Shown here: one piece after another, positions 1,031 to 59,176 of the stretch
Position numbering within the stretch: position 1 is the first letter of the stretch
How the letters are laid out: every line of letters begins with the position of its first letter
DNA from: Candidatus Epulonipiscium sp.
Lineage (GTDB): Bacteria; Bacillota; Clostridia; Lachnospirales; Defluviitaleaceae
Assembly: GCA_012519205.1 (NCBI GenBank)
Contig: JAAYQR010000022.1
Location: forward strand, 1-64,000
Direction of reading: 5' to 3'
DNA length: 64,000 nt
Program-made: the position numbers and the translations under genes
Notes under the pieces: generated by a model
Databases searched by the model: none
Seen by the model: only the letters and a program-made list of their open reading frames with translations
What the model was told of the DNA's origin: nothing

Positions 1031-2338
1031 TTATCTGATAAAGTCTAGGAGGGTTGGTTGTATTACTTTTGCAGTTGCATTAAGGGCAGAATTATAAATA
1101 ATTTGCTGCATACTAAATTCAGTATATACTTCCTCTAGGTCTACCCCCTCATTATCATTATTAAGTTCTTTAAAGTTTAATTCATCGGCTGCTAGACGGT
1201 TGGATACCAGTTCAAGACGTTTCATTCTATTTCCTAGTCCTGATTTTTCCGTGGAAATTTGGCTTAGATGTTTATCTAGTTTGCCAATTAGACTATTAAA
1301 CCTTCTAGATACATCAAGAAGGCCCATCCTTTCATCTTCGGGCTTGTTTCCCTTTTTGACATCTTCTTCGATGCTATAAATTTCATCAACCAGTCTCGAT
1401 AATTCATCAATATCCCTCATTAAATCTGTGGTTAGAATATCTTTTCCTAGGATATTAACTTCTATTTTATTATTAATTCCAACTTCATATTGTATCTTTT
1501 CTGTAGATGGAACGTATTTTTCTCCCCCATCTAAATCTTCGCATTCGAAGTAATGAACGGGGTTTAAATCGCCCCCTTTAAAACTGTGTTTTTCATAGGA
1601 TATGGTAAAATCAGCAATAGTATCTATGTCTTCCTCATGAAAAATAAGTTCTCCTGTATCTCTCAGATAGTGGACTGTTCCTGAATTAGTTGGGTAATAT
1701 GCATCATTAGAATTTGAATCCATCGTCGTAACCGTAAGCCCAGATACATTATCTTTTAAATTATCATATGCCAGTCTTATACGATATGCAATTCCTGGTT
1801 TTTTATCTTGGGTATGCTTCCCCGCTATCTCTATTTCTTCTATATCCTCTTTGGTAAAGCTTTGTGTAATCTCAAACTTTTTGTCGGTTGTTTTATCAAA
1901 CACTAACTTCGTGTCTGTTCTAAATCCAGAAAATAAATATCTTCCTCCATCATAACTTACGTTTCCCTCGTTTATTAATTGTTTCTTTAATTCCATCAAT
2001 TGATCAGCAATCTTTTTTTGCTCATCTATTCCTAAGGTATCATTAGAGCCTTGAACACAACTATCTCTCATGCTTCCCAGTATGCTTTCTATATTTTTTA
2101 TGGCTTGCTCACTACCACCCATCCAACTTTTTGCTTGTTTTATATTAGACTGAAACTGCTGAGTTTCTGCTATTCTTGTTCTGAATTTTAGGGCACGGCC
2201 TGCTATAATTGGATCATCAGATGGTCTTTGTATCTTCTTTAAGGTTGTCATTTGGCTATAGAGTGTATCTAGCCTTTTCATATTTTTATTCAAACCCAAT
2301 AATGTATTATTCATTATCATATTATTAGTAATTCGCAT
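1031..2338 (-). CDS. flgL: Hook-filament junction protein FlgL (HAP3)
   Basis: 435 residues. FlgL forms the second junction ring between hook and filament. The N-terminus MRITNNMIMNNTLLGLNKNMKRL and the C-terminus ending in NSALNATAKVIQPTLLDFI are the paired helical D0/D1 ends shared with flagellin. The central segment (about 140-300) is longer and divergent, as expected for the exposed domain; the family is often nearer 300 residues. It follows flgK by 14 bases and belongs to the flgM-flgN-flgK-flgK-flgL-fliW-csrA unit, presumably driven by the sigma-D promoter before flgM. Confidence 0.92.
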   Translation of the reverse strand: MRITNNMIMNNTLLGLNKNMKRLDTLYSQMTTLKKIQRPSDDPIIAGRALKFRTRIAETQQFQSNIKQAKSWMGGSEQAIKNIESILGSMRDSCVQGSNDTLGIDEQKKIADQLMELKKQLINEGNVSYDGGRYLFSGFRTDTKLVFDKTTDKKFEITQSFTKEDIEEIEIAGKHTQDKKPGIAYRIRLAYDNLKDNVSGLTVTTMDSNSNDAYYPTNSGTVHYLRDTGELIFHEEDIDTIADFTISYEKHSFKGGDLNPVHYFECEDLDGGEKYVPSTEKIQYEVGINNKIEVNILGKDILTTDLMRDIDELSRLVDEIYSIEEDVKKGNKPEDERMGLLDVSRRFNSLIGKLDKHLSQISTEKSGLGNRMKRLELVSNRLAADELNFKELNNDNEGVDLEEVYTEFSMQQIIYNSALNATAKVIQPTLLDFIR

Positions 2339-42286: not shown

Positions 42287-43318
42287 TTAATTTAATGCCT
42301 TAGTTGAATCCCTAATTAATAACTCCCCCGAAAAAATTTTATGAGAGTAGGTTTCCTTTTCATTAATTAAATCAAATAGGATTTTTATAGTTTCTTCTGC
42401 CATCTCTTCAACAGGCTGCCTTATGGTAGTTATGGATGGTTGATAATAAAATGAGATATCAAGCCCATCAAAACCAGCTACAGAATAATCCTCAGGAATT
42501 CTTTTCCCTGCCTCAAATATAGCTTTACATGCCCCTATTGCCATACTATCAGATACGGCATAAATGGCTGTGAATTCTTCATTAAATTCTAGTAATTCCT
42601 TTGTAACCAAATATCCATTTTCCATAGAATAACTCTCAATGCCTTCTTTCATTATTCTCACTAAAGCATCATCGACTTTTAATCCATGGCTCTCTAAGGC
42701 TCTTTTATATCCTTCATACCTTAGCTTTCCAATACTTACATCACTCATCGGAGCCGTAATAATGGCAATCTTCTCATGGCCTAGGCTACATAAATAATCA
42801 ACTATTTTATAGCTTTCCCTAAAATCATCCACCGATACAGAGGAATAATCACTTAAATCAAATTCCTGGGTCATCCTCATTGTACTTAATACAAAAGGTA
42901 CCGTTAGCTGCTGGAGTTTTTCTTTTGAGTGGGAAAACGCCCCCCCTAAAAAAACAATTCCTCTTAGGCGTTTTTCCTTTGCTAATTCAATGGCAACTTC
43001 TATTTCATCTTGTTTTTCTTCTACTCTTTGTAATATAAAAGAATATTTCTTATCCTTGATTTCTTTTTCGAATATCTTTATTGACTTATTAAAAAATGGG
43101 TTGGTAATTCCTTTAATTAATACTGCTATTGTCTTTGAATTTGATCTTTTTAAGTTTCTTGCACTATTGTTAGGAATATAATGATTTTCTTTTATTACCT
43201 TCATTATTCTTGCTTTTGTTTTCTCATTAATATCGGGATGATTATTGATTGCTCTTGATACTGTAGTTACTCCCACTCCACACATTTTAGCAATATCTTT
43301 AATTGTAATTGCAGCCAT
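42287..43318 (-). CDS. LacI-family transcriptional regulator
   Basis: 343 residues. N-terminal helix-turn-helix ITIKDIAKMCGVGVTTVSRA-INNHPDINEKT, hinge RNLKRSNSKTIAVLI, then a periplasmic-binding-like sensor domain. It is the last gene after a sugar ABC importer on the same strand and probably controls it. A candidate operator lies downstream of the importer promoter at 46721-46734. The sugar sensed is unknown. Confidence 0.88.
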   Translation of the reverse strand: MAAITIKDIAKMCGVGVTTVSRAINNHPDINEKTKARIMKVIKENHYIPNNSARNLKRSNSKTIAVLIKGITNPFFNKSIKIFEKEIKDKKYSFILQRVEEKQDEIEVAIELAKEKRLRGIVFLGGAFSHSKEKLQQLTVPFVLSTMRMTQEFDLSDYSSVSVDDFRESYKIVDYLCSLGHEKIAIITAPMSDVSIGKLRYEGYKRALESHGLKVDDALVRIMKEGIESYSMENGYLVTKELLEFNEEFTAIYAVSDSMAIGACKAIFEAGKRIPEDYSVAGFDGLDISFYYQPSITTIRQPVEEMAEETIKILFDLINEKETYSHKIFSGELLIRDSTKALN

Positions 43319-43433: not shown

Positions 43434-44267
43434 TTAGCCTTTTACTGCACCTGCAACAACACCTTCTATTATATATTTTTGGGAGGCCAAATAAAATGCT
43501 ACTATAGGCAAGATAGCTAACACTAACATAGCCATCATGGCACCCATATCGATGGATCCATAGCCACCTTTTAAGTATTGTATAGCAATAGGTATTGTCT
43601 TATAGTCTGTACCAATAACTAAGTTTGGCAATAAGTAGTCATTCCATATCCACATCGTATTAAGTATTGCCACCGTAATGGCTATTGGTTTAAGTATAGG
43701 CATTATAACTTGGAAAAAGGTTTGTAATGGGTTACAGCCATCGATGATAGCTGCCTCCTCTATTTCTATTGGAATCGATTTCACAAAACCTGAAAACATA
43801 AACACCGATAGGCCTGAACCGAATCCTAAATAAATTAATATAAGTCCAACTGGATTATCGATACGTAGCATATTAGCAATTTTACTCATGGTAAACATCA
43901 CCATCTGAAATGGAACTACCATTGAAAATACGAACATATAATACAATCCATCAGTCAATTTTGATTTAACCCTTGTAATGTACCAAGCAGTCATAGAAGT
44001 AAATAAGATAATTACAATAACTGATGATACCGTAATAAATAAAGACATAATAAATGCATTTATAAAACCCGTTTTTAATATACCACTGGCATAATTATTA
44101 AGACCTACAAATGTTTTAGCATCGGGTAAAACAAATGGCGCATTGCTGATAAAAAATTTACCTTTAAAGGAATTCATAAAAACAATAAATATAGGAGCCA
44201 AAAACAAAATAGATAATATACACAAAATTATGAATATTATATAATCCTTTAGCCTTGCGTTTTTCAC
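43434..44267 (-). CDS. Sugar ABC importer permease, MalG type
   Basis: 277 residues with six membrane segments and the EAA loop EEAAIIDGCNPLQTFFQVIMPILKP (about 180-205). GTG start at 44267; the previous gene's TAG shares one base with it (TAGTG), so translation is coupled. It pairs with the MalF-type permease. CUT1-family placement (oligosaccharides) is likely. No ATPase gene follows. Confidence 0.9.
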   Translation of the reverse strand: MKNARLKDYIIFIILCILSILFLAPIFIVFMNSFKGKFFISNAPFVLPDAKTFVGLNNYASGILKTGFINAFIMSLFITVSSVIVIILFTSMTAWYITRVKSKLTDGLYYMFVFSMVVPFQMVMFTMSKIANMLRIDNPVGLILIYLGFGSGLSVFMFSGFVKSIPIEIEEAAIIDGCNPLQTFFQVIMPILKPIAITVAILNTMWIWNDYLLPNLVIGTDYKTIPIAIQYLKGGYGSIDMGAMMAMLVLAILPIVAFYLASQKYIIEGVVAGAVKG

Positions 44268-45106
44268 TAGCCCTCAATCTCCCTTCCTCTAGTAATCAAA
44301 AGTTGTACCAAGGAAATTAATCCTACTAGTATAAAAAATATGACTGCTTTTGCTTGTCCTGTGCCTTCTAATAATTTGGCGTAAAAAGTATTATAGATAT
44401 CTAAGGCTAACATAGTTGTCTGTTTTGAAGGCGCCCCTGCTGTTAGCGCTAAGTTTTGGTCAAATAACTTAAATGAGTTCGACAAAGTTAAGAACAAACA
44501 TATTGTAATAGACGGCATTACTAAAGGTATGGTTACATTTTTTAATATTTGAAAATGGTTGGCTCCATCTATGTTGGCAGCCTCAACCAATTCTTTAGGA
44601 ATACTTTGGATACCTGCTATATATATGACCATCATATAGCCTATTAACTGCCAGTTCATTAGAACTACCAATCCCCAAAAACCATATTTAGCGCTGAAAG
44701 TTAAGGTTACCCCAAACTTTAACAGTACCCCATTAATAATCAACTGCCATATATAACCTAATACAATTCCACCTATTAAATTAGGCATAAAGAAAATAGT
44801 TCTAAAAATATTAGTGCCAAACATCCCCCTGGTCAATAATATAGCAAGAATAAATGCAAGGATATTAATCATTAAAACCGATACCACTGTAAATCTAGTG
44901 GTAAACCAAAGGGCATTTAAAAACTCCTTATCGGAGAATATTCTAATATAATTTTCTAGACCTACCCATTTCGCATCAACTACTGTGGTAAAGTCTGTAA
45001 AGGACAGGTATATTCCTAAAACAAACGGTACAAAAAATGCTATCGCAAATGCTATTAAGGTTGGTAATGCAAAAATCGGGAAATATCTTTTAAGTGTCCT
45101 TTCCAT
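44267..45106 (-). CDS. Sugar ABC importer permease, MalF type
   Basis: 279 residues, six membrane segments, with the EAA motif VEAANIDGANHFQILKNVTIPLV near 170-192 that contacts the ATPase. It lies between the binding protein and the MalG-type permease. Unlike the MalF of the maltodextrin locus, it has no N-terminal extension. Confidence 0.9.
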   Translation of the reverse strand: MERTLKRYFPIFALPTLIAFAIAFFVPFVLGIYLSFTDFTTVVDAKWVGLENYIRIFSDKEFLNALWFTTRFTVVSVLMINILAFILAILLTRGMFGTNIFRTIFFMPNLIGGIVLGYIWQLIINGVLLKFGVTLTFSAKYGFWGLVVLMNWQLIGYMMVIYIAGIQSIPKELVEAANIDGANHFQILKNVTIPLVMPSITICLFLTLSNSFKLFDQNLALTAGAPSKQTTMLALDIYNTFYAKLLEGTGQAKAVIFFILVGLISLVQLLITRGREIEG

Positions 45107-45220: not shown

Positions 45221-46636
45221 TTATTTAGCTTTTTCAGACTTCCAAGCTTCTTTCACAACGTCTACTACTTCATCCCAAGTTCCTGTTCCTTGAGCATATT
45301 GAAGTAATGCATCTCCAAAGTAGTTTTTAAATTCTTCACTTGGGAATGCTGCAAAAGTCCAAGTTACAGCAGTAGTATCTTTTTCCATCCATGTCAATAC
45401 TTCCTTCGCCAATGGATCGGTTGGTTTTTCATCTTCACCAAAAGTTGTAAATGGTGCAATAAATCCTAGGTCTTTTGCTACATATCCTTTACCTTTTTCA
45501 CTAGAGAATAACCATTCTAAAAAGTCAACGGAAGCTTGTTGTACTTCAGGAGCTACCTTAGAGTTGATTGCAAAGTAGTTTTCTGTTCCAACAGCTAAAC
45601 CTTGGCTTTCTTCTCCAGCCATACCTGTGTAGATTGGTAAGAATTTAATATCTTCAGATGCTACCACGTTTCCTTCTACTTCGTCAATTTGTGACCAAGC
45701 CCAGTTACCGTTTTGAACCATTGCTGCTTGACCAAGAGCAAATTCAGCCATGGAATCTTGAACGGATTTACTCCCTAACATGGTTCCTGCAACTGTTGAG
45801 TTGTTTACATATAAATCAAAGATGTTTTTAAAGTTATCTGCATATTTGAATTCAATTTCGTCAGCTGCAAGACCTGCTAAAATAGTATTGTCAAAGTCTG
45901 TATTATCTTTGAATTCATAGTAGAAAGGAATATTTGCTAAGTGAGTTTGCCATCTCCATTGTTCTCCTGCAGATAAGGATGTAGAAGCAAATACACCTTC
46001 AATGCCTAAAGCATCTTTCTTTGCAGTCATATCTTCAACTACAGCTTTTAATATATCAAAGTTATTCACTTCGTCCATTGAAGATACGGAAACCGCTTTA
46101 TCTTCTAGAGCAAAATATTTTTCCATAATGGCATTGTTATAAATAATACCATATCCTTCAACTGCATATGGGATACCATAAACCCCTTCTCCCTCTGTTA
46201 CTGCTAAGCTCTTATCGGATAGAGTATTATAAAGATTTGTATTTCCTAAATCTGCACAATATTCTTTCCAATTTGCATAACCAACGGGTCCATTGATTTG
46301 GAATATTGTAGGTGGTTGGGATTTAGCAATTTCTGATTTTAAGGTTGTCTCATATGTTCCAGCTGCTGCTGTTACGACTTTAACTTTAACCCCTGTTTCT
46401 GCTTCATAATCTGCTGCAACCTTATCGTATACTTCTGCAATCTCAGGTTTAAAGTTTAAGAAATATATTTCTTTTACGTCAGATGTAGATGCATTTGAAT
46501 CATCTTTTTCTGTTTGTTGTGTTGCGTTATTATCCCCTTGTTGATTACCATTTTGTGCTTGCTTTCCACATCCTGCTGTTAGTCCGGCAAGCATTGTCAC
46601 TAATAACGCAGATGCTAATAACTTTTTGATTTTCAT
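45221..46636 (-). CDS. Sugar ABC importer substrate-binding lipoprotein
   Basis: 471 residues. Signal peptide with lipobox (LLVTMLAGLTAGCGKQ), a Gln/Asn/Asp-rich linker, then a family 1 extracellular solute-binding fold. Lipid anchoring at the cysteine near residue 22 puts it on the outer face of the membrane. The ATG at 46636 has GGGAG five bases upstream; a longer frame to 46735 crosses the operator. The sugar cannot be named. Confidence 0.9.
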   Translation of the reverse strand: MKIKKLLASALLVTMLAGLTAGCGKQAQNGNQQGDNNATQQTEKDDSNASTSDVKEIYFLNFKPEIAEVYDKVAADYEAETGVKVKVVTAAAGTYETTLKSEIAKSQPPTIFQINGPVGYANWKEYCADLGNTNLYNTLSDKSLAVTEGEGVYGIPYAVEGYGIIYNNAIMEKYFALEDKAVSVSSMDEVNNFDILKAVVEDMTAKKDALGIEGVFASTSLSAGEQWRWQTHLANIPFYYEFKDNTDFDNTILAGLAADEIEFKYADNFKNIFDLYVNNSTVAGTMLGSKSVQDSMAEFALGQAAMVQNGNWAWSQIDEVEGNVVASEDIKFLPIYTGMAGEESQGLAVGTENYFAINSKVAPEVQQASVDFLEWLFSSEKGKGYVAKDLGFIAPFTTFGEDEKPTDPLAKEVLTWMEKDTTAVTWTFAAFPSEEFKNYFGDALLQYAQGTGTWDEVVDVVKEAWKSEKAK

Positions 46637-46720
46637 TGTTTCTCCCTCTTTCTTTTTGTTTTTTAATTCTTTTATGAAATACATTACCAGCATATACTTT
46701 GAAGGAATCGGTATCCTTAT

Positions 46721-46734
46721 CGGTAACGTTTTCA
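46721..46734. promoter_or_regulatory. Candidate LacI-family operator
   Basis: Minus strand TGAAAACGTTACCG, close to LacI-family/CRE-type sites with a central CG. It lies a few bases after the expected transcription start of the binding-protein gene, so a bound repressor would block initiation. It could be a site for the LacI protein at 42287 or for CcpA. Confidence 0.5.
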
Positions 46735-46744
46735 CCTCAAGGGT

Positions 46745-46901: not shown

Positions 46902-48980
46902 TTACACTCTAAATTGTTCTAGGGACTTGCTTAAATTAGTGGTTGCCTCCGATAACTTATCTGCTAATTTAGCCAGTTGTTCGGCAGAACTCGTCTGTTC
47001 CTTACTAACATGTGCAACTTCTTGAAGAGATTTTGCGCTTTTCTCAGCAATATCTGAAATACTTTTAATTGACCCCACAGATTCTTCCTTCTGCCTTCTT
47101 ATATCCTGTATGTTTATATTGGTATCTTCTACCTGCCTGATTATTTTTTGTATGGACTCTGCCATTTCATTAAAAGCATTATTGGCTTTTAAAACGATTT
47201 CTTTTTGTTCTTCAAATATCTCATCTGACATCTCTACCTTGTATACTGTTTTCTCTGTCTTTACTTTAATATTGGATATAATTATCGCAATTGTTTCTGT
47301 AGCTTTTTTTGTCTCTACAGATAATTTGCGGATTTCTTCAGCTACAACCGCAAATCCTTTTCCTGTTTCCCCTGCCTTGGCGGCCTCAATAGCTGCATTT
47401 AAAGCGAGAAGGTTCGTTTGCTCACTGATATCTTCTATAACCTTTACAACTTGAATGACTTCTGAGGTTTCCTCACTTAATTTATTGATTTCTTCATTGA
47501 TTATATTGGAGGATTCTACTGCTGCTTGTGTCTTTTTGTTTAAGTTTTTTATCGTATTTACAGCGTAATCCCTTGATTGTTGGGTTCTATCGACCATATT
47601 CATAATGTTTTCAGTATGCTTTATAATGTCATTGATATTACGAGCTAAGTGTTCCATTGTCCCGTGGGTATTTTCCGATTGCTTTGCCTGTTCTAGGGAG
47701 CCCTTTGCTAAATCATCAACGGCAAAAGAAACCTGTTCTGCTGCTGCTGCCGATAAATGGGAACTGTTTTTTATAATATCATTATCGTTTTCTATTTGTT
47801 TAGCTACATCCGAGGTTTGTATAATTAAATTTTGAATGTTTTGGACCATCTTATTAAAGCTTTTTGCAAATCTTCCTATTTCATTTTTTCCTTCGATAGA
47901 TGAGGCTATCCTTAAGTCCCCACCCTCCACCTTAGCCATGAGATTTATTATGCTCTTTAAGGGGGTAGATATGCTAAAGGCAATAAAAATTCCCACTATG
48001 ATGGATATCAAGACACATATAATGCTAATTATAATAATACTCTTCCTTACAGTAGTCATTTCTGACATTAAAGAGTTTATCGGCTCCTTAGTAACTAATT
48101 TCCAACCATTTTTTGTGGTTCCATAACTTATTACATAATTTGAATCTGTAAAGTTATCTGTTTCTTCATTACTATATATATTGTTTAGATATTCGTCTTC
48201 TAACTCAATTCCTAGCATATCAAAATCCAAATGGGATATGACTTTTCTATCATTATTTAATAGAAATATCTCCAAATCGCTTCCTAAATTTGCTTGTTCA
48301 AAAATCGAGTTGATTCCTTCCATGTTAATACAGATACTTAAAACTCCTATTTGTTCATGGGCTTTTAAGCTTTTTAAGGATGTCAAAATATAGATATACT
48401 CGTAGGAGTCATTAAGACCTGTAACCCATACAGGTGTACCATTGGTATCCTTAACAATCTCCGTAAATTGTCGCAACAATTGGTTTTTATTAATTGCTCT
48501 ACCGTCCCTTGTTGTTATCACGATACCTGAGCCTAAAACATCGCCATTGTCTTTGTAAATATTGGCACCTTCTATATATTCACTGGAGGTTGTTATGGAT
48601 ATTAAAGCCTTGTTTATCTTGTCCAAACTTTGAACCTTTTCAAATGAATTTTTAAACTCCTGCTTTTCAAGGTTTTCCATTAATTCCGTATTAGAAATAA
48701 TCATCCTGGATAAACTTTCAAAATCTTCTATTGTATAATCTATATTTACAGCCATTTGCTTAATCATCTTTTCAGAATAAAGCCCTACCTTGTCTTTAAC
48801 AGTTTTTTCCGCATTGAAATAGGAGAAGCCTGCCACAATAGCTAGGGGAATAATGCTTAATAATATAAAAGCCGTAATTAGTTTTTGAGCGATTCCTATA
48901 TTATTTGTAGAACTAACTCTAGGTTCCTTATGTCTTCCTTGACGCTTTGACTTTTCACGTAATTTTTTTAATTTATACAA
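46902..48980 (-). CDS. Methyl-accepting chemotaxis protein with Cache-type sensor
   Basis: 692 residues. First membrane segment near 30-52, a large extracellular domain of Cache type (about 55-310), a second segment near 315-337, HAMP (about 338-395) and a signalling domain whose tip reads [31 protein letters not shown]. Start is TTG (48980) with AGGAGG seven bases upstream. It lies between a sugar importer and a second chemoreceptor, suggesting attraction to a sugar or its binding protein, but the ligand is unknown. Confidence 0.92.
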
Positions 48981-49012
48981 GAACCTTCCTCCTCATACTT
49001 TCCCCATCTATC

Positions 49013-49052
49013 AAAGAAGGCACCTGCCCTTAAAGCAGCATGTACCTTCTTT
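49013..49052 (-). terminator. Hairpin between the two chemoreceptor genes
   Basis: AAAGAAGG/CCTTCTTT outer arms with internal partial pairing, after the 49073 gene on the minus strand. Likely a weak terminator. Confidence 0.5.
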
Positions 49053-49072
49053 ATCCATTTATAAATTTATTC

Positions 49073-50848
49073 CTATTTAAGTTTAAAACTGTTAATCCTT
49101 TGGTTAAGTATCTTTGCCATTTCATTTAATTGTTGGGAGGTTGCTGACAATTCCTGTGCTGCCGCATTCACCTCTTCCGATGAAGCTGCTATTTGATTGG
49201 ATGTCGCTGATGTCCCTTCTGCATACAAGGATACTGTCTTTACTTTTTCAACTATGCCATCTTTGTTACCATTAATTACAAATATAGATTTACTTACAGC
49301 ATCAATCTGTGGAAGGATACTCTCAATAGATCTTATTATTTCTTTAAAAGATTCTATAGTACTGTTAACTTCTTCTGTTTGAGCTACTAAATGATTCTTC
49401 ACATCGTCTGTTGTTTCTATAACCGTATCTGATTCTTCCTCAATCATATTTATCATATCATCTATGTTTTTAGATGCTCTTTTTGATTGTTCTGCTAGTT
49501 TTCTTATCTCATCGGCAACAACCGCGAATCCTTTCCCTGCCTCCCCTGCTCTAGCAGCCTCGATAGCTGCATTCAAAGCTAGTAAATCCGTCTGATCTGA
49601 AATTGCATTAATCATATTAGTAATGGTTGTTATAGAACTTATGTTTACACCTAATCTTTCAATTTTTTCAATTACTGTACCAAATAAGCTTTCAATGCTC
49701 TTTATAGAAGACATAAGGCTCTCTAGCTTTTCATTTCCACCCTTAGCCATTGTATTCGTGTTCATTGCATTTTCGTGAACATCTTCTATGGAAATAACAA
49801 TACTATCTAATTCCATTCCAAATTCAGTAACACTCTCGCTTATACCTTGTAGTTCATTGTATTGATGAAGAGCACCCTTAGATACATCCTGCACGGCTTC
49901 TGAAACTTGCTCTGCCGATGCGCTCATCTGCTCTGCTACAGAGGCTAAATCATCAGAATATACTTCTATATCTGATGTGCTTTGTTTGACTAATTTAAAT
50001 GCATTGGAAATTTCATCAGATACTTTTGCTAGGGCCTTTCTCATGATTCCAAATTCATTTTTACCATTGATGCTGATTTCTTCCGTAAAATCCCCTTCGG
50101 AAATCTTGTCTAAATTGCCTATCATTAATTTCATGGATTTTCTTATAATTCTTGTAATAACTAAGCTAAAACTTACCAGAAGAAAAAGAGAGATAGTGAT
50201 AATAATTATGTAAAACTTTAAATTGTTATCGTATATAGCTTTATTTTCTTCCTTCAAACCTTCCGCTAGGGATTTATTGTATCTTACCAGTCCTTGTAAA
50301 GAAGAATCAATATTAGATTCTATAGTCTTTACTTTGCTTTGTTGTAAACTTTCCACTTTGCCTTTTTCTGATATAGTTGATTTGATTACTTCCCAGGTTT
50401 CCAAATAATCTTTATATTCTTTTTTGAATTTTTCAAGATATTTAGCTTCGTTTTCGTCCATTTCTATTTGATCGTATTCGTTAATTATACTTTCAATCAA
50501 TTTATGACTAGACTTGATTCTGTTATCATATTCATGATAAAATGTAGTTTCCGTTCCTCGGGATAAATTGTAACGGATTGAATAATATTGATTTTGTAGT
50601 TCTCCTATTTTTACAATCGGCAAAAGCCTATCTTCATAAATTGCCTCTGCATTTCTTTCAATCTTACCCATGGAACTATATCCCAGTGTACCAACAAACA
50701 ACAAAAGGGTAATAGAAAAAAATAAAATTAATATTATGCCGGTAACAATCTTTATACCCTTTTTGCTCTCTTTTTTTAAAGAATCTTTAGAAGGATGCTG
50801 GCTTTTCAGGACACTCTTTTTAGGCTTAAGCAGTTTAAGTTTCTTCAT
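49073..50848 (-). CDS. Methyl-accepting chemotaxis protein with four-helix-bundle sensor
   Basis: 591 residues. Cytoplasmic Lys-rich start, membrane segment near 32-55, a short helical extracellular domain (about 58-210; the 4HB_MCP pattern), a second segment near 213-233, HAMP, and a signalling tip [34 protein letters not shown]. Its promoter (50963-50991) faces away from the glucan phosphorylase promoter and shares the MalR-like operator at 50988, so this receptor probably belongs to the maltodextrin regulon. Confidence 0.92.
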
Positions 50849-50962: not shown

Positions 50963-50991
50963 ATTATACAATAAATAAATAATTAATGCAA
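50963..50991 (-). promoter_or_regulatory. Sigma-A promoter of the chemoreceptor gene
   Basis: Minus strand TTGCAT, 17 bases, TATAAT. Its -35 box overlaps the palindromic operator at 50988-50999. The rest of the gap down to the ribosome site (50849-50962) shows nothing else clear. Confidence 0.7.
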
Positions 50992-50999
50992 CCGATTGC
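50988..50999. promoter_or_regulatory. MalR-type operator between divergent promoters
   Basis: GCAACCGATTGC, one of three GCAA-NCGN-TTGC sites in this locus. It overlaps the -35 boxes of both divergent promoters, so one repressor dimer could silence both the chemoreceptor and the glucan phosphorylase. Confidence 0.75.
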
Positions 51000-51024
51000 G
51001 TTAATTATATTTTTTTTGTATAAT
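50996..51024 (+). promoter_or_regulatory. Sigma-A promoter of the glucan phosphorylase gene
   Basis: TTGCGT, 17 bases, TATAAT. The leader of about 130 bases holds a long-loop inverted repeat (AAAACTTAA at 51063, TTAAGTTTT ending at 51110). Confidence 0.75.
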
Positions 51025-51162: not shown

Positions 51163-52779
51163 ATGGTTAATAAAAACTTACCAAAGGTTGCCTATTTCTG
51201 TATGGAGTATGGTCTTGATGTATCCTTAAAGACCTATGCAGGTGGACTTGGAATATTAGCTGGGGACTATATGAAAGGTGCTAAAGATCATAATTTCCCT
51301 ATTATTGGGATTGGTCTTAAATGGAAACAAGGATATACCGATCAAAAAATTGGTGAAGATGGTCGTCCTTACGATACATATCATAATTATGACTATGATT
51401 GTATGAAAGATACAGGGGTTAAGGTTACTGTAAAAATCCGTCAAAGAGATGTTGTATGTAAGGTTTGGGAAGTTACCGAATTTGGAACTAATCCATTGTA
51501 TCTTCTAGATACAGACCTTCCTGAAAATGAAGATAATTGGATTACCGGCCAATTATATGGATGGTTTGGGGAAGAAAGAATTGCTCAAGAAATGGTTTTA
51601 GGTATTGGGGGAGTTAGAGCTCTTAGGGCTTTAGGTATTGATGTAGATGTTTATCACTTTAATGAAGGTCATGCACTTTTTGCAGGCTTTGAATTAGTAA
51701 AGGAAAGAATGGATAAAGGAATGACTTTCGCAGAAGCTGCAGAAGCTTCAAGAGATGAAATTGTATTTACAACCCATACTCCTATTGTACAAGGAAACGA
51801 ATCCCACTACTTGGATAGACTTATGTACATGGGTGCTAATAATGGGCTAACCCTAGAACAATTGGTTTCCCTAGGCGGTTCTCCATTCAATATGACTGTA
51901 GGGGCTCTTAAGTTATCAAGAAAGTCCAATGCAGTTGCTCAACTTCATAACGAAACCGCAAATAAAATGTGGGCTCATATAGACAACCGTTCTGAAATTG
52001 TAGGGATTACTAATGCGATTCATCTACCAACTTGGGTTGACAATCGCATGGTTGATGCCGCGACTAATGGTGGAGACTTATGGGAAATCCATATGGAAAA
52101 CAAGAAAAAACTAGTAGATTTCGTTGAAGAAAGAAATGGAGTTAAACTAGATGCCAATAAGCTTCTCATTGGTTTCTCAAGAAGAGCTGCTCCATATAAG
52201 AGAAGTAACTTTATTTTCACAGATGAAAGCATTATTGATCCTTTGTTGAAGGAAGGCAAACTCCAAATTGTATTCTCCGGTAAAGCTCATCCCCTAGATG
52301 ATACCGGAAAAGAAATCGTTGAAAATATAGTTCGTATGTCTAAAAAATACCCTAATGCAGTGGTTTTCCTTGAAAATTATGATATGACTATTGGTGCCAT
52401 GCTTACAAGAGGTTCTGATGTATGGTTGAATAATCCAAGAAGACCTAAGGAAGCTAGCGGAACTTCCGGAATGAAAGCAGCTATGAATGGAATCCTAAAC
52501 CTAAGCACCCTAGATGGATGGTGGCCAGAAGCCTGTGATCATGGTGTTAATGGATGGCAATTCGGGGATGGTTTTGAAAGTGAAGATGAAAAAGTATTAG
52601 ATGCCCATGATTTAAAGGCTCTTTATAAAGTACTTTTAGAAGAAGTGCTGCCAACCTATTACGATAATCGCGATAAATGGGTTGAAATGATGAAAGAAAG
52701 TATCTTAAGTACAAAAGACAAATTTGCAGTTAAAAGAATGCTAGAAGAGTATTACGAAAAACTTTATATCAAGGCATAA
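51163..52779 (+). CDS. glgP: Alpha-glucan phosphorylase (GT35, short form)
   Basis: 538 residues. It cleaves alpha-1,4-glucans with phosphate to alpha-glucose-1-phosphate. This is the short phosphorylase type, far below the 800 or so residues of classical GlgP. Motifs: PKVAYFCMEYGLDVSLKTYAGGLG at the N-terminus, FNEGHALFAGFEL near 165, and RPKEASGTSGMKAAMNGILNLS near 430, containing the pyridoxal-phosphate lysine. The ATG has AGGAGG just upstream. It is monocistronic, followed by a hairpin, and controlled by the operator at 50988. Confidence 0.92.
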   Translation: MVNKNLPKVAYFCMEYGLDVSLKTYAGGLGILAGDYMKGAKDHNFPIIGIGLKWKQGYTDQKIGEDGRPYDTYHNYDYDCMKDTGVKVTVKIRQRDVVCKVWEVTEFGTNPLYLLDTDLPENEDNWITGQLYGWFGEERIAQEMVLGIGGVRALRALGIDVDVYHFNEGHALFAGFELVKERMDKGMTFAEAAEASRDEIVFTTHTPIVQGNESHYLDRLMYMGANNGLTLEQLVSLGGSPFNMTVGALKLSRKSNAVAQLHNETANKMWAHIDNRSEIVGITNAIHLPTWVDNRMVDAATNGGDLWEIHMENKKKLVDFVEERNGVKLDANKLLIGFSRRAAPYKRSNFIFTDESIIDPLLKEGKLQIVFSGKAHPLDDTGKEIVENIVRMSKKYPNAVVFLENYDMTIGAMLTRGSDVWLNNPRRPKEASGTSGMKAAMNGILNLSTLDGWWPEACDHGVNGWQFGDGFESEDEKVLDAHDLKALYKVLLEEVLPTYYDNRDKWVEMMKESILSTKDKFAVKRMLEEYYEKLYIKA

Positions 52780-52844: not shown

Positions 52845-52856
52845 GCAAACGGTTGC
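52845..52856. promoter_or_regulatory. MalR-type operator before the amylase gene
   Basis: GCAAACGGTTGC, the second of the three GCAA-NCGN-TTGC palindromes, 28 bases before the amylase start. No clear sigma-A promoter was found beside it. Confidence 0.7.
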
Positions 52857-52884: not shown

Positions 52885-54402
52885 TTGAAAAGGTTGCTCT
52901 TATTTTTCCTAGTTCTTTTACTTTTTACAGGATGTAATCCAAAACAAGCTCCCGAACAAATAGAAGACAAATCTCATATAAAGCAAGAATCCTCCACTAA
53001 AGAGGAAAATAATAATACTCCTTCGGTGGATTCTGAAATTAAATATACTGTTAAAAATGATGGTGGAAATTTTTCAAGTGAAGATTTAATTTACTTTATT
53101 ATGGTGGATAGATTTTATGATGGGGATGAAACAAATAACAATTTCGATGATGTCGATAAAAATGATCCAATAAAATTTCATGGGGGAGATATTAAAGGAA
53201 TAATTGAGAAACTTGATTATATAAAATCCCTAGGAGCTACTGCCATCTGGCTTACCCCGGTTCTTAAAAATGAGCCTAATGGCTATCACGGTTACTGGAC
53301 TTATGATTTCTATGATGTCGATCCTCATTTTGGTTCTATGAAGGATTTAAAATTATTAGTTGAAAAGGCACATAGTATGGACATAAAGGTATTATTTGAC
53401 CATATTGTAAATCACACAGGATACAACCATCCTTGGGTAACCGCTCCTGAGAAAGAAGATTGGTTCCACCCAAAAAAGGACATTACCAATTGGAATGACC
53501 AAAAACAGGTTGAGGATGGATGGCTCCATGGTCTCCCAGACCTAAATCAGGATAATCCTGAAGTTAGTAAATATCTTTATGATAACACCCTTTGGTGGAT
53601 TGAAAATACCGGTATTGATGGCATGAGACTTGATACCATGCGCCATGTATCAAAGGAATTTTGGAATGAATTTGCTAAGGAAATCAAAGATAAATATCCC
53701 GATTTTTATTTAATTGGGGAAGTCTGGAACAATAATCCAAGGTATCTAGAGTTATATCATCAGGTAGGAATTGACGGTATGACAAATTATCCTCTATTTG
53801 ATGGAATTAGAGATACCTTTAAACAGTTTGGGAAAACCAGTGCCCTAGTAAGTGCTATCGAAAAGGAAAAGTTCTATTCTAATCCCGAGATAAATGGGGT
53901 ATTTCTAGATAATCATGACAATAAAAGACTAATAACCCAGGCTGGGGATAATGGGGAAGAATATCTAAGACAAGCTCTAGCTTTTGTCATGACCTATAAA
54001 GCCATTCCTGTAATCTATTATGGAACAGAAATAGCCATGGAAGGCGGAGATGATCCTGATAACAGAAGGGATATGCAGTGGGAAAAAATTCAGGATTCTA
54101 AAACCTTAGAATTCTATAAGACCTTAGTTACCTTAAGGCAAAGCAATGAGGCTCTAAAATCTGGAGAGTTTAAACTCTTAGATTATGATAATGAATTTAT
54201 TTCATACAGTAGATATACTGATGATAAAGCTGTTATTGTAATAATTAACATAAAAGATAAGCAAAAAGAGGTAAGTATTGACATTGATCATTCTGCTATT
54301 TCTTTTAAAAATATATTCAGCGACACCGTTTATTCAGCTGGAAATGGTAAAATAAAAATAGACCTTAAGCCTTTTGATATAATCATATTAGAATCAAAGT
54401 AG
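52885..54402 (+). CDS. GH13 alpha-amylase, cell-surface lipoprotein
   Basis: 505 residues. Signal peptide and lipobox LLFTGCN put it on the outer face of the membrane; a polar linker follows. The GH13 barrel is intact: LFDHIVNHTG (region I), GMRLDTMRH with the nucleophile Asp, LIGEVWNN with the acid Glu, and FLDNHDNKR with the third Asp. Start is TTG (52885) with GGGAGG upstream. It should degrade starch to maltodextrins for the importer at 55.6-59.1 kb. Exact product pattern (amylase or pullulanase-like) is not certain. Confidence 0.9.
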   Translation: MKRLLLFFLVLLLFTGCNPKQAPEQIEDKSHIKQESSTKEENNNTPSVDSEIKYTVKNDGGNFSSEDLIYFIMVDRFYDGDETNNNFDDVDKNDPIKFHGGDIKGIIEKLDYIKSLGATAIWLTPVLKNEPNGYHGYWTYDFYDVDPHFGSMKDLKLLVEKAHSMDIKVLFDHIVNHTGYNHPWVTAPEKEDWFHPKKDITNWNDQKQVEDGWLHGLPDLNQDNPEVSKYLYDNTLWWIENTGIDGMRLDTMRHVSKEFWNEFAKEIKDKYPDFYLIGEVWNNNPRYLELYHQVGIDGMTNYPLFDGIRDTFKQFGKTSALVSAIEKEKFYSNPEINGVFLDNHDNKRLITQAGDNGEEYLRQALAFVMTYKAIPVIYYGTEIAMEGGDDPDNRRDMQWEKIQDSKTLEFYKTLVTLRQSNEALKSGEFKLLDYDNEFISYSRYTDDKAVIVIINIKDKQKEVSIDIDHSAISFKNIFSDTVYSAGNGKIKIDLKPFDIIILESK

Positions 54403-54428
54403 CCCTACTTTTTTAGTAGGGCTTTTTG
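54400..54428. terminator. Bidirectional terminator between amylase and malR-like genes
   Basis: AGCCCTACT/AGTAGGGCT with a 5-base T loop and T-run, overlapping the amylase stop and the 3' end of the regulator gene. Confidence 0.8.
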
Positions 54429-55430
54429 TGTTGACTCTCTTTCTATAAAATTTGTTTCTATTATATAATGGGTGGCTATTTCCCCTTTTTCTATGCTACT
54501 TTCTAGCTTATTGATGAGAAGCTTAGTTGCATAGTATCCGATTTTTTCTGCTTTAATATCTACAGAAGAGAGGGAAGGAGTTTGGTAAGGGGCAAGGGAG
54601 GTATTATTAAACCCCGCGACTAAAACTTCCCCCATGTCTTTTTCTTTGATTGCCTTTAATACTCCAAAGGCAATCAAATCATCCGTTGTTACAATAGCAT
54701 GGGGAATAGTATATTCCATGAGTTCTTTTGCACCTTCATAACCTTTTAATTCAGAAAACTCTGAGGTAATAATAAGGTTATCATCTATGCTTATACCTCT
54801 TCCTTCTAGAGCTCTTTTATATCCCGCCAATCTATCCTTTGTAACATTAAATTGCTCCGGTCCACCAATAAAAGCAATCTTTTTATTGCCTCTTTCAATG
54901 AGGGTAGTAACTACATTATACATAGCTTGAAAATTATCATTGTCAACCCATAACACATTAGAGGTATCTTTTGGACGTCCTACAACAACAAATGGATACT
55001 TAATGTCTTTAAGATATTCTATAGATTCATCTTCTTCTCTTGCAGACAGTAGTATAATGCCATCTACCCACTTACTATGGATATACTTTTTAATAAATTC
55101 CATTTCTTGTTCTTCATTATCACTATAACTATACATAATATAGTACCCTCTTTTTTGTGCGTATACACTTATTCCTCGCATAGCTTGAATAAAGAAAGGG
55201 TTATTAAATAAATCTTCATCTGTATTGGGAAGTAAAACTCCCAAGGTCTTTGTGGATCTATTTGCCAAACTTCTTGCTATGGCATTAGGGTGATAATGTA
55301 ACTGCTTCATTGCCTTTAAAACTCTTTTTTTTGTTTCATCGCTAATCTTAGGATTATCTGCTATTACCCTAGAAACAGTAGAAGGCGATACATTAGCTGC
55401 CTTAGCCACATCCTTAATCGTAACTACCAT
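54405..55430 (-). CDS. malR: LacI-family regulator, probable maltodextrin regulator MalR
   Basis: 341 residues. N-terminal VTIKDVAKAANVSPSTVSRV helix-turn-helix, the hinge RSLANRSTKTLGVLL, then a sugar-binding-like domain ending before the terminator. It sits between the amylase and malG. Three GCAA-NCGN-TTGC palindromes in the locus match the operator type bound by MalR-like members of this family. Regulation by maltodextrin is inferred from context. Confidence 0.85.
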   Translation of the reverse strand: MVVTIKDVAKAANVSPSTVSRVIADNPKISDETKKRVLKAMKQLHYHPNAIARSLANRSTKTLGVLLPNTDEDLFNNPFFIQAMRGISVYAQKRGYYIMYSYSDNEEQEMEFIKKYIHSKWVDGIILLSAREEDESIEYLKDIKYPFVVVGRPKDTSNVLWVDNDNFQAMYNVVTTLIERGNKKIAFIGGPEQFNVTKDRLAGYKRALEGRGISIDDNLIITSEFSELKGYEGAKELMEYTIPHAIVTTDDLIAFGVLKAIKEKDMGEVLVAGFNNTSLAPYQTPSLSSVDIKAEKIGYYATKLLINKLESSIEKGEIATHYIIETNFIERESTQKALLKK

Positions 55431-55565: not shown

Positions 55566-56444
55566 TTAACCTTTAGTAGCTCCTGCAGATAAACCTTGTA
55601 CAATGTATTTTTGTAAGAATAAAAATAGTATTGTAATCGGAATTGCTACTAAGATAGAGCCCGCTGCAAATCTTGTAAAATAGGTGTTTTGGTTTTCTTG
55701 AATCCACTGGAATAATCCTAGAGCTAAAGTTCGCTTATTAGATGACCTAAGAACTATTTGTGGGAATATAAAATCAAACCAAGGTCCTATGAAATTACTT
55801 ATAGCCACGAAGGTAATGATAGGTTTTGCAAGGGGTATAATAATTTTTCTAAATATGGTGATATTACTTGCCCCATCAATTTTGGCAGCCTCATCAAGAC
55901 TTCTTGGAATTCCTTCAAAATAACCCTTACAAAGCCATGTATTGTATGGAATCTGTCCTGAAGCATAAACCAATATTAACCCTAAATGGGTATTTAATAA
56001 ATTAAGTCTAAATAAAAGAACATATATGGCTGTCATTGACATAAAGGCCGGGAACATTTGTAATATTAATATTGTCATTATAGTTAATTTTCTTCCCCTA
56101 AATGTAAACCTTGAAAAAACATATGCCGTTAGAGTTGTGAAAACAACCGATAAAACCATATTAGCTGTTGCTATTTTTATGGTATTAAGATACCATATGG
56201 CGTAATCCGTTTCGGTAAACAAATCAATATAATGCTTAAAAGTAGGGTTCTTGGGAAACATTGTAGAACTAAAAAGACTGCTTCCCGAGTTAAGAGAAGA
56301 ACCTACAATCCATAAAACTGGTGCCAATATAATTGCTGACATCAGTATAAGTAATCCATAAACAAAAATCATCTTTATAATCCTTAAGGGACTAAATCTT
56401 TTATTTAATTCTGGAATTTGGTTGTTTAGCTTCGTATCCATCAC
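55566..56444 (-). CDS. malG: Maltodextrin ABC importer permease MalG
   Basis: 292 residues, six membrane segments, EAA motif LDEAAKIDGASNITIFRKIIIP near 190-210. The start overlaps the malF stop (ATGA), so translation is coupled. Its substrate is inferred from the surrounding amylase, glucosidases and phosphorylases. No ATPase gene in the locus. Confidence 0.92.
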   Translation of the reverse strand: MMDTKLNNQIPELNKRFSPLRIIKMIFVYGLLILMSAIILAPVLWIVGSSLNSGSSLFSSTMFPKNPTFKHYIDLFTETDYAIWYLNTIKIATANMVLSVVFTTLTAYVFSRFTFRGRKLTIMTILILQMFPAFMSMTAIYVLLFRLNLLNTHLGLILVYASGQIPYNTWLCKGYFEGIPRSLDEAAKIDGASNITIFRKIIIPLAKPIITFVAISNFIGPWFDFIFPQIVLRSSNKRTLALGLFQWIQENQNTYFTRFAAGSILVAIPITILFLFLQKYIVQGLSAGATKG

Positions 56445-57727
56445 ATCATGTCCTCCTCTTTGAAGGATTTTGTTCTAGTAAATGAATATGCAGAAATACT
56501 TGCTATAAATAAAAATAGTATAATCGTAATAACCGATGCCATATGGTATTTATTTTGGTCCCTTGTCAATTTATAAATCCATGATATTAATATATCAGTT
56601 GAACCCGCATATCTGTAGTTTCCATTGACAGGATTTCCATCGGTTAATAAGTATATAGCTTGGAAATTATTAAAGTTGTGTGCAAAGGTCATTACAATAA
56701 GAGCAGAGGTTTGATAAAGTACCATGGGCAAAGTTATATGGATAAACTGTTGAAATTTATTTCCACCGTCAATTTCTGCCGCTTCATACATACCCTTGTC
56801 TATGTTTGTTAATACCCCCGACATAAGTGCCATCCAGTAAGGAGAACCAAGCCAAATATTAATAATTACAATCATAACCTTAGCCAGTATTGAATCGGTA
56901 AGCCAAGGGGTTTTATTCATTCCCAAAGATACCAAAAGGTTATTAATAGGGCCTGGGCCACTAAACATCAGGCGCATAATAAGAAGAGAAATAAAGCCGG
57001 GTATAGCATAAGGAAGTATAAAAATACTTCTCCAGAATTTCTTCAGCTTAACTTCTTTCCAGTTGACAATAAGTGCCATAAATAATCCTGCAAAGTAATT
57101 GGATACTGTAGCTGCTATTGCCCAGATAACAGTCCATACCCCTACCCCTACAAAAGTATTGTTCCAAATATCTAAGGTAAATAATTGCTTAAAATTTTTG
57201 AAACCTACCCAATCAACTAAATTCTTAGGAGGCAGATGGTTAGGACTTGAATAGTTGGTAAATGCTATAGATACTGTAAATACAATCGGAAGTAACACAA
57301 AGAAGATTATAAATACCATCGGTATTGCTAAAATAAATTGTGGAAAATATCTATCCCATACATATAATAAAAATTCCTTTGTAGTCAAAACAGGTTCTCC
57401 CTGTGCTCTTAGCTCTCCAGATTTTTTAGCATCTATAATATTAAGAATATATACTATAACTACTAAAGTTAATAATAATGCTGCTATAAGGCCATCTACT
57501 AAAAGAAATATAGAATGATCTCCCTGTGCTATACCATCCACATAATGCAGAGGAGTATCCCCTAGGGTTATTAGTCCATATATTGATTTCTTAAAGTATG
57601 GAATAAAAATAATGGTTACGACTTCTATTAAAAAATATATAATTCCTTTTAGATATTCTTTATTATAAAACTGACCAAGTCCCATGAATAATATAGACAA
57701 TGCCATGGATCTCTTAGACTTTTTCAT
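56441..57727 (-). CDS. malF: Maltodextrin ABC importer permease MalF with N-terminal membrane extension
   Basis: 428 residues, about 140 longer than a plain permease. Residues 1-115 form extra membrane segments beginning MALSILFMGLGQFYNKEYLK, similar to TM2-type domains, before the six-segment permease part with the EAA motif MYEAAEIDGGNKFQQFIHITLP near 310-330. Long MalF forms with extra N-terminal helices are known; the role of this part is unclear. Confidence 0.9.
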   Translation of the reverse strand: MKKSKRSMALSILFMGLGQFYNKEYLKGIIYFLIEVVTIIFIPYFKKSIYGLITLGDTPLHYVDGIAQGDHSIFLLVDGLIAALLLTLVVIVYILNIIDAKKSGELRAQGEPVLTTKEFLLYVWDRYFPQFILAIPMVFIIFFVLLPIVFTVSIAFTNYSSPNHLPPKNLVDWVGFKNFKQLFTLDIWNNTFVGVGVWTVIWAIAATVSNYFAGLFMALIVNWKEVKLKKFWRSIFILPYAIPGFISLLIMRLMFSGPGPINNLLVSLGMNKTPWLTDSILAKVMIVIINIWLGSPYWMALMSGVLTNIDKGMYEAAEIDGGNKFQQFIHITLPMVLYQTSALIVMTFAHNFNNFQAIYLLTDGNPVNGNYRYAGSTDILISWIYKLTRDQNKYHMASVITIILFLFIASISAYSFTRTKSFKEEDMM

Positions 57728-57753
57728 CTCCCCAACCCTCCTTGTTTTTTTAG

Positions 57754-57795
57754 AAAAAATCTAGTCACCTACCACAGTAAATGACTAGATTTTAT
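57754..57795 (-). other. Hairpin between malE and malF
   Basis: AAAATCTAGTCA/TGACTAGATTTT arms with a 14-base loop; same position as the hairpin at 45175 in the other importer. Probably raises malE message over malF. Confidence 0.65.
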
Positions 57796-57808
57796 TAATA
57801 AACTAGTT

Positions 57809-59122
57809 TTATTCTTCTTCTGCAGTGATAGAATCTCTCATTGCATCTGCAGCCTTTTTAAGTGCTTCTTCTGGTGCTACACCATCATTCCACATGGAAC
57901 CAAATGCTGCTCCATATGGATCCCACATATATTGTACTTGAGAAATACTTGGCATTGGTACAGCGTATTCTGCTTGGTCTAAGAATGGAGATACAAATTC
58001 ATCATTTTTAATTTCCTCTGCATCAGCTAATGCCTTAACAGGAGGTATTTGACTGGTTACTTCAAATCTCTTTAAGAGAGCTTCATCAGATGTTATAAAG
58101 TCAAGGAAAAGTTTTGAAGCATTAGGATATTTTGTGTATGCACTTACCCAAAGTACACGAATACCTGAAAAGCTTGGTTGTTGTTGTCCATTAGACATTT
58201 TTGGAAGAGGAGCAACGCCGAAGTTTAAGCCTGCATCTTTTCTACCTTGAACTGCCCAAGGTCCATCAATGATAGCTCCCACTTTACCTTCATCAAATAA
58301 TCCTTCGATAATTTGTGTAGTAGAGTCTGTGGAGTTTACAGGTAAGATTTCTTTAAGTCTAAGCATATCTTTTGCCCCTGCAACAGCACCATCATTGTCA
58401 AGACCCACATCGTCTTTATCTGTTCCACCTTGACCGAATACATATCCACCACCATTAGCTATAAAGCTATGGGAGTAGTATGCGTTTTGGATATCCCACA
58501 TGAAAGCATATTTGTTAGCGTTTGCATCGTTAAATTCATCTGCTTTTGCAATAATTTCATCATAGGATGTTGGAGCTTCTGGGAAGATATCTTTGTTATA
58601 AAAAAGAGCATATGTTTCGATAGCTGTTGGGTAACCATATACTGTTCCTTGGTATGATACAGCTGAATAAGCAGCATCCATGAAATCATTCTTAATTCTT
58701 TCACCTGTATTTGTATTAGGTTGAACCAATCCTGCAGATATTAATGAACCTAAATGGTCATGGGGAGCTGCAAATATATCTGCCCCAACCCCAGCAGGTC
58801 CGTCTTGTGCTAATCTTTCTTCAGCGTCAACTGCGCCTACTGCTTCAAGGTTAACTTTTACGCCATATTTAGCTTCAAAGTCTACAACCATTTCTTTTAA
58901 CCACTCTTGTTCAGGTCCTTCACTTTCCCATACAAGAAGTTCTGCGCCATCTTCTGGTTTTAGATCATTATCTTCTTCTACCTGGTCTTCTTTTTTACCT
59001 GAATCATCTGTTACCTCTTGATTTGAATCTCCTTGTGATGCTGGCTTTTGTTTTTCGCCGCCACAAGCTGCTAATGATAATACCATTACCATCATTAACA
59101 TTAAACTTAAAATCTTCTTCAT
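57809..59122 (-). CDS. malE: Maltodextrin-binding lipoprotein MalE
   Basis: 437 residues. Signal peptide with lipobox VMVLSLAACGGEK, an acidic Gln/Glu/Asp linker, then a maltodextrin-type solute-binding fold (LLVWESEGPEQEWLKEMVVDFEAKYGVKV; later YGYPTAIETYALFYNKDIFP). The ATG at 59122 has AAGGGGG six bases upstream. It is driven by a strong promoter at 59177 and controlled by the operator at 59157. Confidence 0.92.
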   Translation of the reverse strand: MKKILSLMLMMVMVLSLAACGGEKQKPASQGDSNQEVTDDSGKKEDQVEEDNDLKPEDGAELLVWESEGPEQEWLKEMVVDFEAKYGVKVNLEAVGAVDAEERLAQDGPAGVGADIFAAPHDHLGSLISAGLVQPNTNTGERIKNDFMDAAYSAVSYQGTVYGYPTAIETYALFYNKDIFPEAPTSYDEIIAKADEFNDANANKYAFMWDIQNAYYSHSFIANGGGYVFGQGGTDKDDVGLDNDGAVAGAKDMLRLKEILPVNSTDSTTQIIEGLFDEGKVGAIIDGPWAVQGRKDAGLNFGVAPLPKMSNGQQQPSFSGIRVLWVSAYTKYPNASKLFLDFITSDEALLKRFEVTSQIPPVKALADAEEIKNDEFVSPFLDQAEYAVPMPSISQVQYMWDPYGAAFGSMWNDGVAPEEALKKAADAMRDSITAEEE

Positions 59123-59156
59123 GTGAATCCCCCTTACTAATTTTAGAATAGTTTTT

Positions 59157-59168
59157 GCAATCGTTTGC
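59157..59168. promoter_or_regulatory. MalR-type operator at the malE start site
   Basis: GCAATCGTTTGC (minus strand GCAAACGATTGC), third of the GCAA-NCGN-TTGC set, lying at the expected transcription start just after the -10 box. Confidence 0.8.
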
Positions 59169-59176
59169 ATAACCCA

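Follow-up and report, generated by a model that had tools for sequence, protein, structure and literature searches.

A predicted maltodextrin operator shared by the divergent promoters of a chemoreceptor and an alpha-glucan phosphorylase in Candidatus Epulonipiscium

The window analyzed here, a stretch of 64,000 nucleotides from a Candidatus Epulonipiscium sp. contig (JAAYQR010000022.1, assembly GCA_012519205.1), carries a chemoreceptor gene lying back to back with an alpha-glucan phosphorylase gene. The receptor (49073-50848, minus strand, 591 aa) has a four-helix-bundle (4HB) ligand domain between two membrane helices, a HAMP domain (24.3 bits, slightly below the curated cut-off of 25), and an MCP signalling domain. 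This organization and its Pfam matches (4HB_MCP_1, 5e-22; TarH, 1.5e-12; MCPsignal, 3e-35) place it in the 4HB_MCP/TarH class. On the plus strand, glgP (51163-52779) encodes an alpha-glucan (maltodextrin) phosphorylase of 538 aa, which scores 643.7 bits against TIGR02094 (cut-off 191.7). It is followed by an alpha-amylase/neopullulanase-type GH13 enzyme (52885-54402, plus strand; Pfam Alpha-amylase, 3.5e-69) whose N-terminus is lipoprotein-like, with a sequence that resembles a lipobox when judged by eye. Adjoining the amylase gene is that of a LacI-family, MalR-like regulator (54405-55430, minus strand; Pfam LacI, 1.8e-21, and Peripla_BP_3), which is a candidate repressor and whose gene directly follows malE-malF-malG on the same strand. 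These three genes (55566-59170, minus strand) are assigned to a maltodextrin-type ABC transporter by matches to MalE and MalF models that fall below the curated cut-offs. As in MalR regulons for alpha-glucans, a LacI-family regulator is encoded together with alpha-glucan genes.

A second receptor gene, of the dCache type (46902-48980, minus strand), lies 92 bases downstream of the first. It is directly upstream of a set of sugar ABC transporter genes (45221-46735, 44267-45106, and 43434-44267), and this set is in turn followed by a LacI-family gene of its own (HTH at 43169-43306). The dCache receptor is possibly another sugar-linked receptor. The two receptor genes may be cotranscribed, as a scan found no T-tailed terminator between them, but a strong hairpin lies there on the minus strand (48985-49070, -21.7 kcal/mol, z -3.7), without a clear T tail.

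Between the receptor gene and glgP, the plus strand from 50963 to 51024 reads ATTATA-N19-GCAACCGATTGC-N19-TATAAT over a span of 62 bases. The central palindrome (50988-50999, no strand assigned) is a predicted LacI/MalR-type operator, and it supplies the first four of the six bases of a -35 box in each direction. The predicted sigma-A promoter of the receptor (50963-50991, minus strand) combines TTGCAT at 50991-50986 with TATAAT at 50968-50963, and that of the phosphorylase (50996-51024, plus strand) combines TTGCGT at 50996-51001 with TATAAT at 51019-51024. Both -10 boxes are perfect, and each is separated from its own -35 box by 17 bases. Direct reading of the sequence bears out to the base what the initial annotation had described, namely an operator overlapping the -35 boxes of divergent promoters with 17-base spacers. 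Counting against the promoter reading, neither -35 box matches TTGACA at more than three of six positions. Because of this poor fit to consensus (3/6), a stock promoter scan lists neither of the two predicted promoters, and it reports promoter-like sites at chance level. Support for the predicted promoters comes from the perfect -10 boxes and from their conservation. When the flanks are shuffled (preserving dinucleotides, operator fixed), a perfect -10 box falls in place in 0.29% of cases on the left and 0.37% on the right, the product being about 1e-5.

The operator belongs to a small set of sites. Allowing up to one mismatch, the motif GCAANCGNTTGC is found three times in the window (all three copies perfect) against 0.55 expected, and the 2.13-Mb genome holds seven perfect copies, while the reversed control gives none. 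Two of the seven (L001, L007) are inside coding sequence, and the five non-coding ones all lie upstream of alpha-glucan genes: the receptor/glgP pair, the amylase gene at 52885, malE, a GH65-type phosphorylase gene just past the window's end (contig position 65969), and a pullulanase-type gene on a different contig. The copy upstream of the amylase gene reads GCAAACGGTTGC (52845-52856), and the malE copy (59157-59168, GCAAACGATTGC on the minus strand) comes directly downstream of TTGACA-17-TATAAT; no strand is assigned to either. Three of the sites, those of malE, the GH65 gene, and the pullulanase gene, are downstream of the -10 box, so that overlap with both -35 boxes is peculiar to the divergent pair. 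The five non-coding GCAANCGNTTGC sites show what is expected of a MalR regulon, that is, an even palindrome with a central CG common to alpha-glucan promoters. In a broader sample, the operator occurs within 300 bp upstream in 15 of 41 Bacillota glgP loci, as compared with 97 of 8200 random windows from those loci.

The genome encodes six LacI-family proteins, including that of the 54405 gene, and the palindrome GCAACCGATTGC also resembles a cre site. Both points would suit a CcpA-like global catabolite regulator acting at the operator, in which case preferred sugars would repress the two genes and maltodextrin would not induce them. However, all six proteins fall short of the NCBIfam ccpA cut-off (442 bits, the best of them scoring 227), and the five non-coding copies, all at alpha-glucan genes, form too narrow a set for a global regulator. 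What would mark a CcpA regulon was not seen: there is no protein at the ccpA level, and in this survey of strict sites the copies are confined to alpha-glucan genes. Control by a CcpA-like protein is further opposed by orthologues of the 54405 gene (68-70% identity) in the corresponding clusters of Caloranaerobacter azorensis and a second genome (G390), where they also adjoin malEFG. Global catabolite control is therefore improbable. Because every non-coding site is at an alpha-glucan gene, and because the orthologue accompanies the arrangement in these two genomes, the 54405 product appears to be the best candidate regulator of the operator sites, as first proposed.

The arrangement itself recurs. 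Among 80 phosphorylase loci taken from species genomes, one has a receptor back to back with glgP, that of C. azorensis DSM 13643 (L056). Its receptor is 46% identical to the window's, and the intergenic region contains GCAAACGGTTGC with TTGCAT-17-TATAAT on either side. A search of 150 relatives of C. azorensis revealed one further close receptor relative, in G390, where glgP and the gene of this receptor, whose identity to the window's is 48%, point away from each other on either side of GCAAACGGTTGC, with both -10 distances the same. The window, C. azorensis, and G390 thus share the receptor-operator-glgP unit with ATTATA-N19-GCAANCGNTTGC-N19-TATAAT at identical spacings. When the three regions are aligned by their operators, they are identical at six of six positions in each -10 box and at 10 of 12 in the operator, as opposed to 6 of 17 in each spacer and 10 of 70 in the outer flanks. 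Conservation is therefore concentrated in the control elements, and the strongest evidence for the predicted array is that two other genomes have it in full. The chance tests and this recurrence uphold the earlier idea of a LacI-type operator common to both promoters; the placing of the receptor within the maltodextrin regulon likewise gains from the recurrence and from the five of five non-coding sites at alpha-glucan genes.

A fourth receptor (40% identity), in G287, came from a profile search that covered 391 genomes of the class. Its gene there is second after a debranching-enzyme-like gene, and the operator separates the latter from an amylase gene that runs divergently. The rightward promoter of this locus (L261, 3626-7477) resembles an extended -10 (TGTTATAAT). 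In a tree of 46 receptors, the four starch-linked ones form a single clade (support 100/99). A check of 46 other receptors, which covered 2.5 kb upstream of each as far as sequence was available, found the operator before none of them. When 291 genomes of the class were scanned for the full bidirectional pattern, the sole match was the window's own genome, which makes the arrangement a rare one among them. Searching 96 relatives with the ligand domain gave only remote matches (19-27% identity), none of which has operator or glgP neighbors among the loci inspected. In C. azorensis, a pair of operator copies 44 bases apart (L157, about 1500-1560; G375:C69:22553-22608) lies upstream of a gene for a secreted-protein-like product of at least 481 aa, which is a candidate for a further member of the alpha-glucan regulon there.

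The closest relative by glgP (L055, 90% identity) has the design with the operator in the -35 box (TTGCAC-17-TATAAT) next to a different divergent neighbor, with no receptor at the locus. The linkage of receptor and glgP is therefore not universal, and the receptor must have been gained or lost at a pre-existing glgP control site. This locus shows that the glgP side can stand alone, and divergent neighbors are common, as would be expected if the operator regulated the phosphorylase only and the receptor were merely back to back with it, expressed constitutively or from another promoter. Yet the leftward -10 box and the length of its 17-base spacer are invariant in three genomes whose flanks vary, an operator lying over both -35 boxes is not easily selective, and in G287, the sole receptor orthologue in another gene order, the receptor is again behind the operator. 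It is thus quite unlikely that the receptor escapes the control exerted on glgP.

Since the genome encodes a FliA-type sigma factor and flagellins, the receptor might instead depend on flagellar sigma-D, with the sigma-A-like promoter being incidental. One of four flagellin N-terminal domain matches in the genome falls in the window itself (1922-2332, minus strand, 66.4 bits). Against sigma-D dependence, the receptor-glgP intergenic region contains no TAAA-N13-16-CCGATA site, the only sigma-D-like sequence there being a degenerate and wrongly spaced ACCGTATC. Nor does the receptor gene have the TAAA-N15-GCCGATAT-type promoter of sigma-D receptor genes, a motif that may be divergent in this genome. 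We regard flagellar control of this receptor as extremely unlikely. The same search bears on the “usual sigma-D control” with which the initial annotation had contrasted this receptor: TAAA-N13-16-CCGATA is not enriched genome-wide (65 matches against 57 in the control), and a CCGAT[AT] box is present in none of the nine upstream regions of the genome's other receptors. As the motif is not enriched, no contrast with other receptors could be drawn, and that part of the proposal is unsupported.

A model of shared repression can be proposed from these elements. Very probably, a MalR-type repressor silences the receptor and the phosphorylase jointly until maltodextrin is present. A dimer of the LacI-family protein encoded at 54405 would bind the palindrome at 50988-50999, centered on 50993/50994, where it would cover both -35 boxes, block sigma-factor contact, and exclude the polymerase from both promoters. 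Leftward transcription of the 4HB chemoreceptor gene and rightward transcription of the phosphorylase gene would be silenced together. A maltodextrin-derived inducer would then release the repressor and open both promoters, and the same release would open those of the amylase, malE, GH65 phosphorylase, and pullulanase genes, so that the receptor would be among the inducible members of the alpha-glucan regulon. As the two -35 boxes are only four bases apart, two polymerases would hardly fit together, and the promoters may compete. We infer this mechanism as a whole, including repressor binding, the sign of regulation, the inducer, and the receptor's ligand, from the anatomy of the locus and from knowledge of the family. 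Since the array is kept with identical spacing in two other bacteria, the sensor is probably made only when starch sugars are there.

The receptor itself would probably signal the presence of maltodextrins or of products of starch breakdown, whether directly or via the MalE-type binding protein. The structure model of its ligand domain has four long helices at moderate confidence (pLDDT 76, from a two-sequence alignment), and its nearest solved folds include 4HB receptor domains such as those of Vc1313 and Tsr, with no match below an E-value of 0.001. The model and the fold comparison indicate the general 4HB fold and no ligand. All members of the starch-linked clade have the five residues N86, Y93, Y104, N133, and G186, and none of the 41 outgroup receptors compared has them at these positions, which makes them candidates for contacts with a ligand or partner. 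On balance, we lean toward a broader proposal in which this distinct clostridial 4HB clade would be a dedicated, repressor-gated module for alpha-glucan taxis. It would be built only on maltodextrin induction through a symmetrical one-operator bidirectional promoter, and the receptor-operator-glgP unit would have been retained or transferred as a block across families of the class.

Receptor content is usually regarded as part of the flagellar program, and here the sequence ties a receptor to the repressor of a sugar pathway. One operator is predicted to serve both sensor and enzyme, tying the receptor to the pathway that it may serve. Taxis toward starch sugars should accordingly be inducible under this prediction, and the 4HB ligand domain gains a concrete class of candidate ligands. 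Both predictions can be tested, as the receptor-operator-glgP unit is also carried by a named strain, C. azorensis DSM 13643.

The window's receptor shares its four-helix-bundle fold with E. coli Tar, as judged from the TarH match and the Tsr/Tar-like folds. Tar senses maltose through MalE and is expressed with the flagellar regulon, only MalE being in the mal regulon; here, by contrast, the receptor itself would be placed in the sugar regulon. A closer parallel is found in Shewanella, where gel shift and qPCR showed that the LacI-family regulator NagR controls transport, catabolic enzymes, and mcp-Nag (PMC3223726). In both systems a LacI-family sugar regulator has a methyl-accepting chemotaxis protein in its regulon, by prediction in ours. 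The Shewanella system concerns N-acetylglucosamine in Gammaproteobacteria and this one alpha-glucans in Clostridia, and, unlike the NagR system, a single operator here extends into both -35 boxes of divergently arranged receptor and enzyme genes. The enzymatic side is familiar from Caldicellulosiruptor bescii, in which the LacI-family MalR controls glgP, malEFG, and amylases via a palindrome (PMC8579813). Firmicute MalR regulons in general also have a common palindrome and target glgP, malEFG, amylases, and pullulanase (PMC8579813; LacI-family survey, PMC4052901). In contrast to the present locus, the main texts of these two papers mention no chemotaxis or methyl-accepting protein, and searches of the open literature turned up no receptor described as being under MalR. 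LacI-family control of a sugar-regulon chemoreceptor (NagR/mcp-Nag) and MalR regulons are therefore known already; what is new, as far as could be checked, is the symmetrical shared operator in an alpha-glucan regulon, together with the starch-linked receptor clade.
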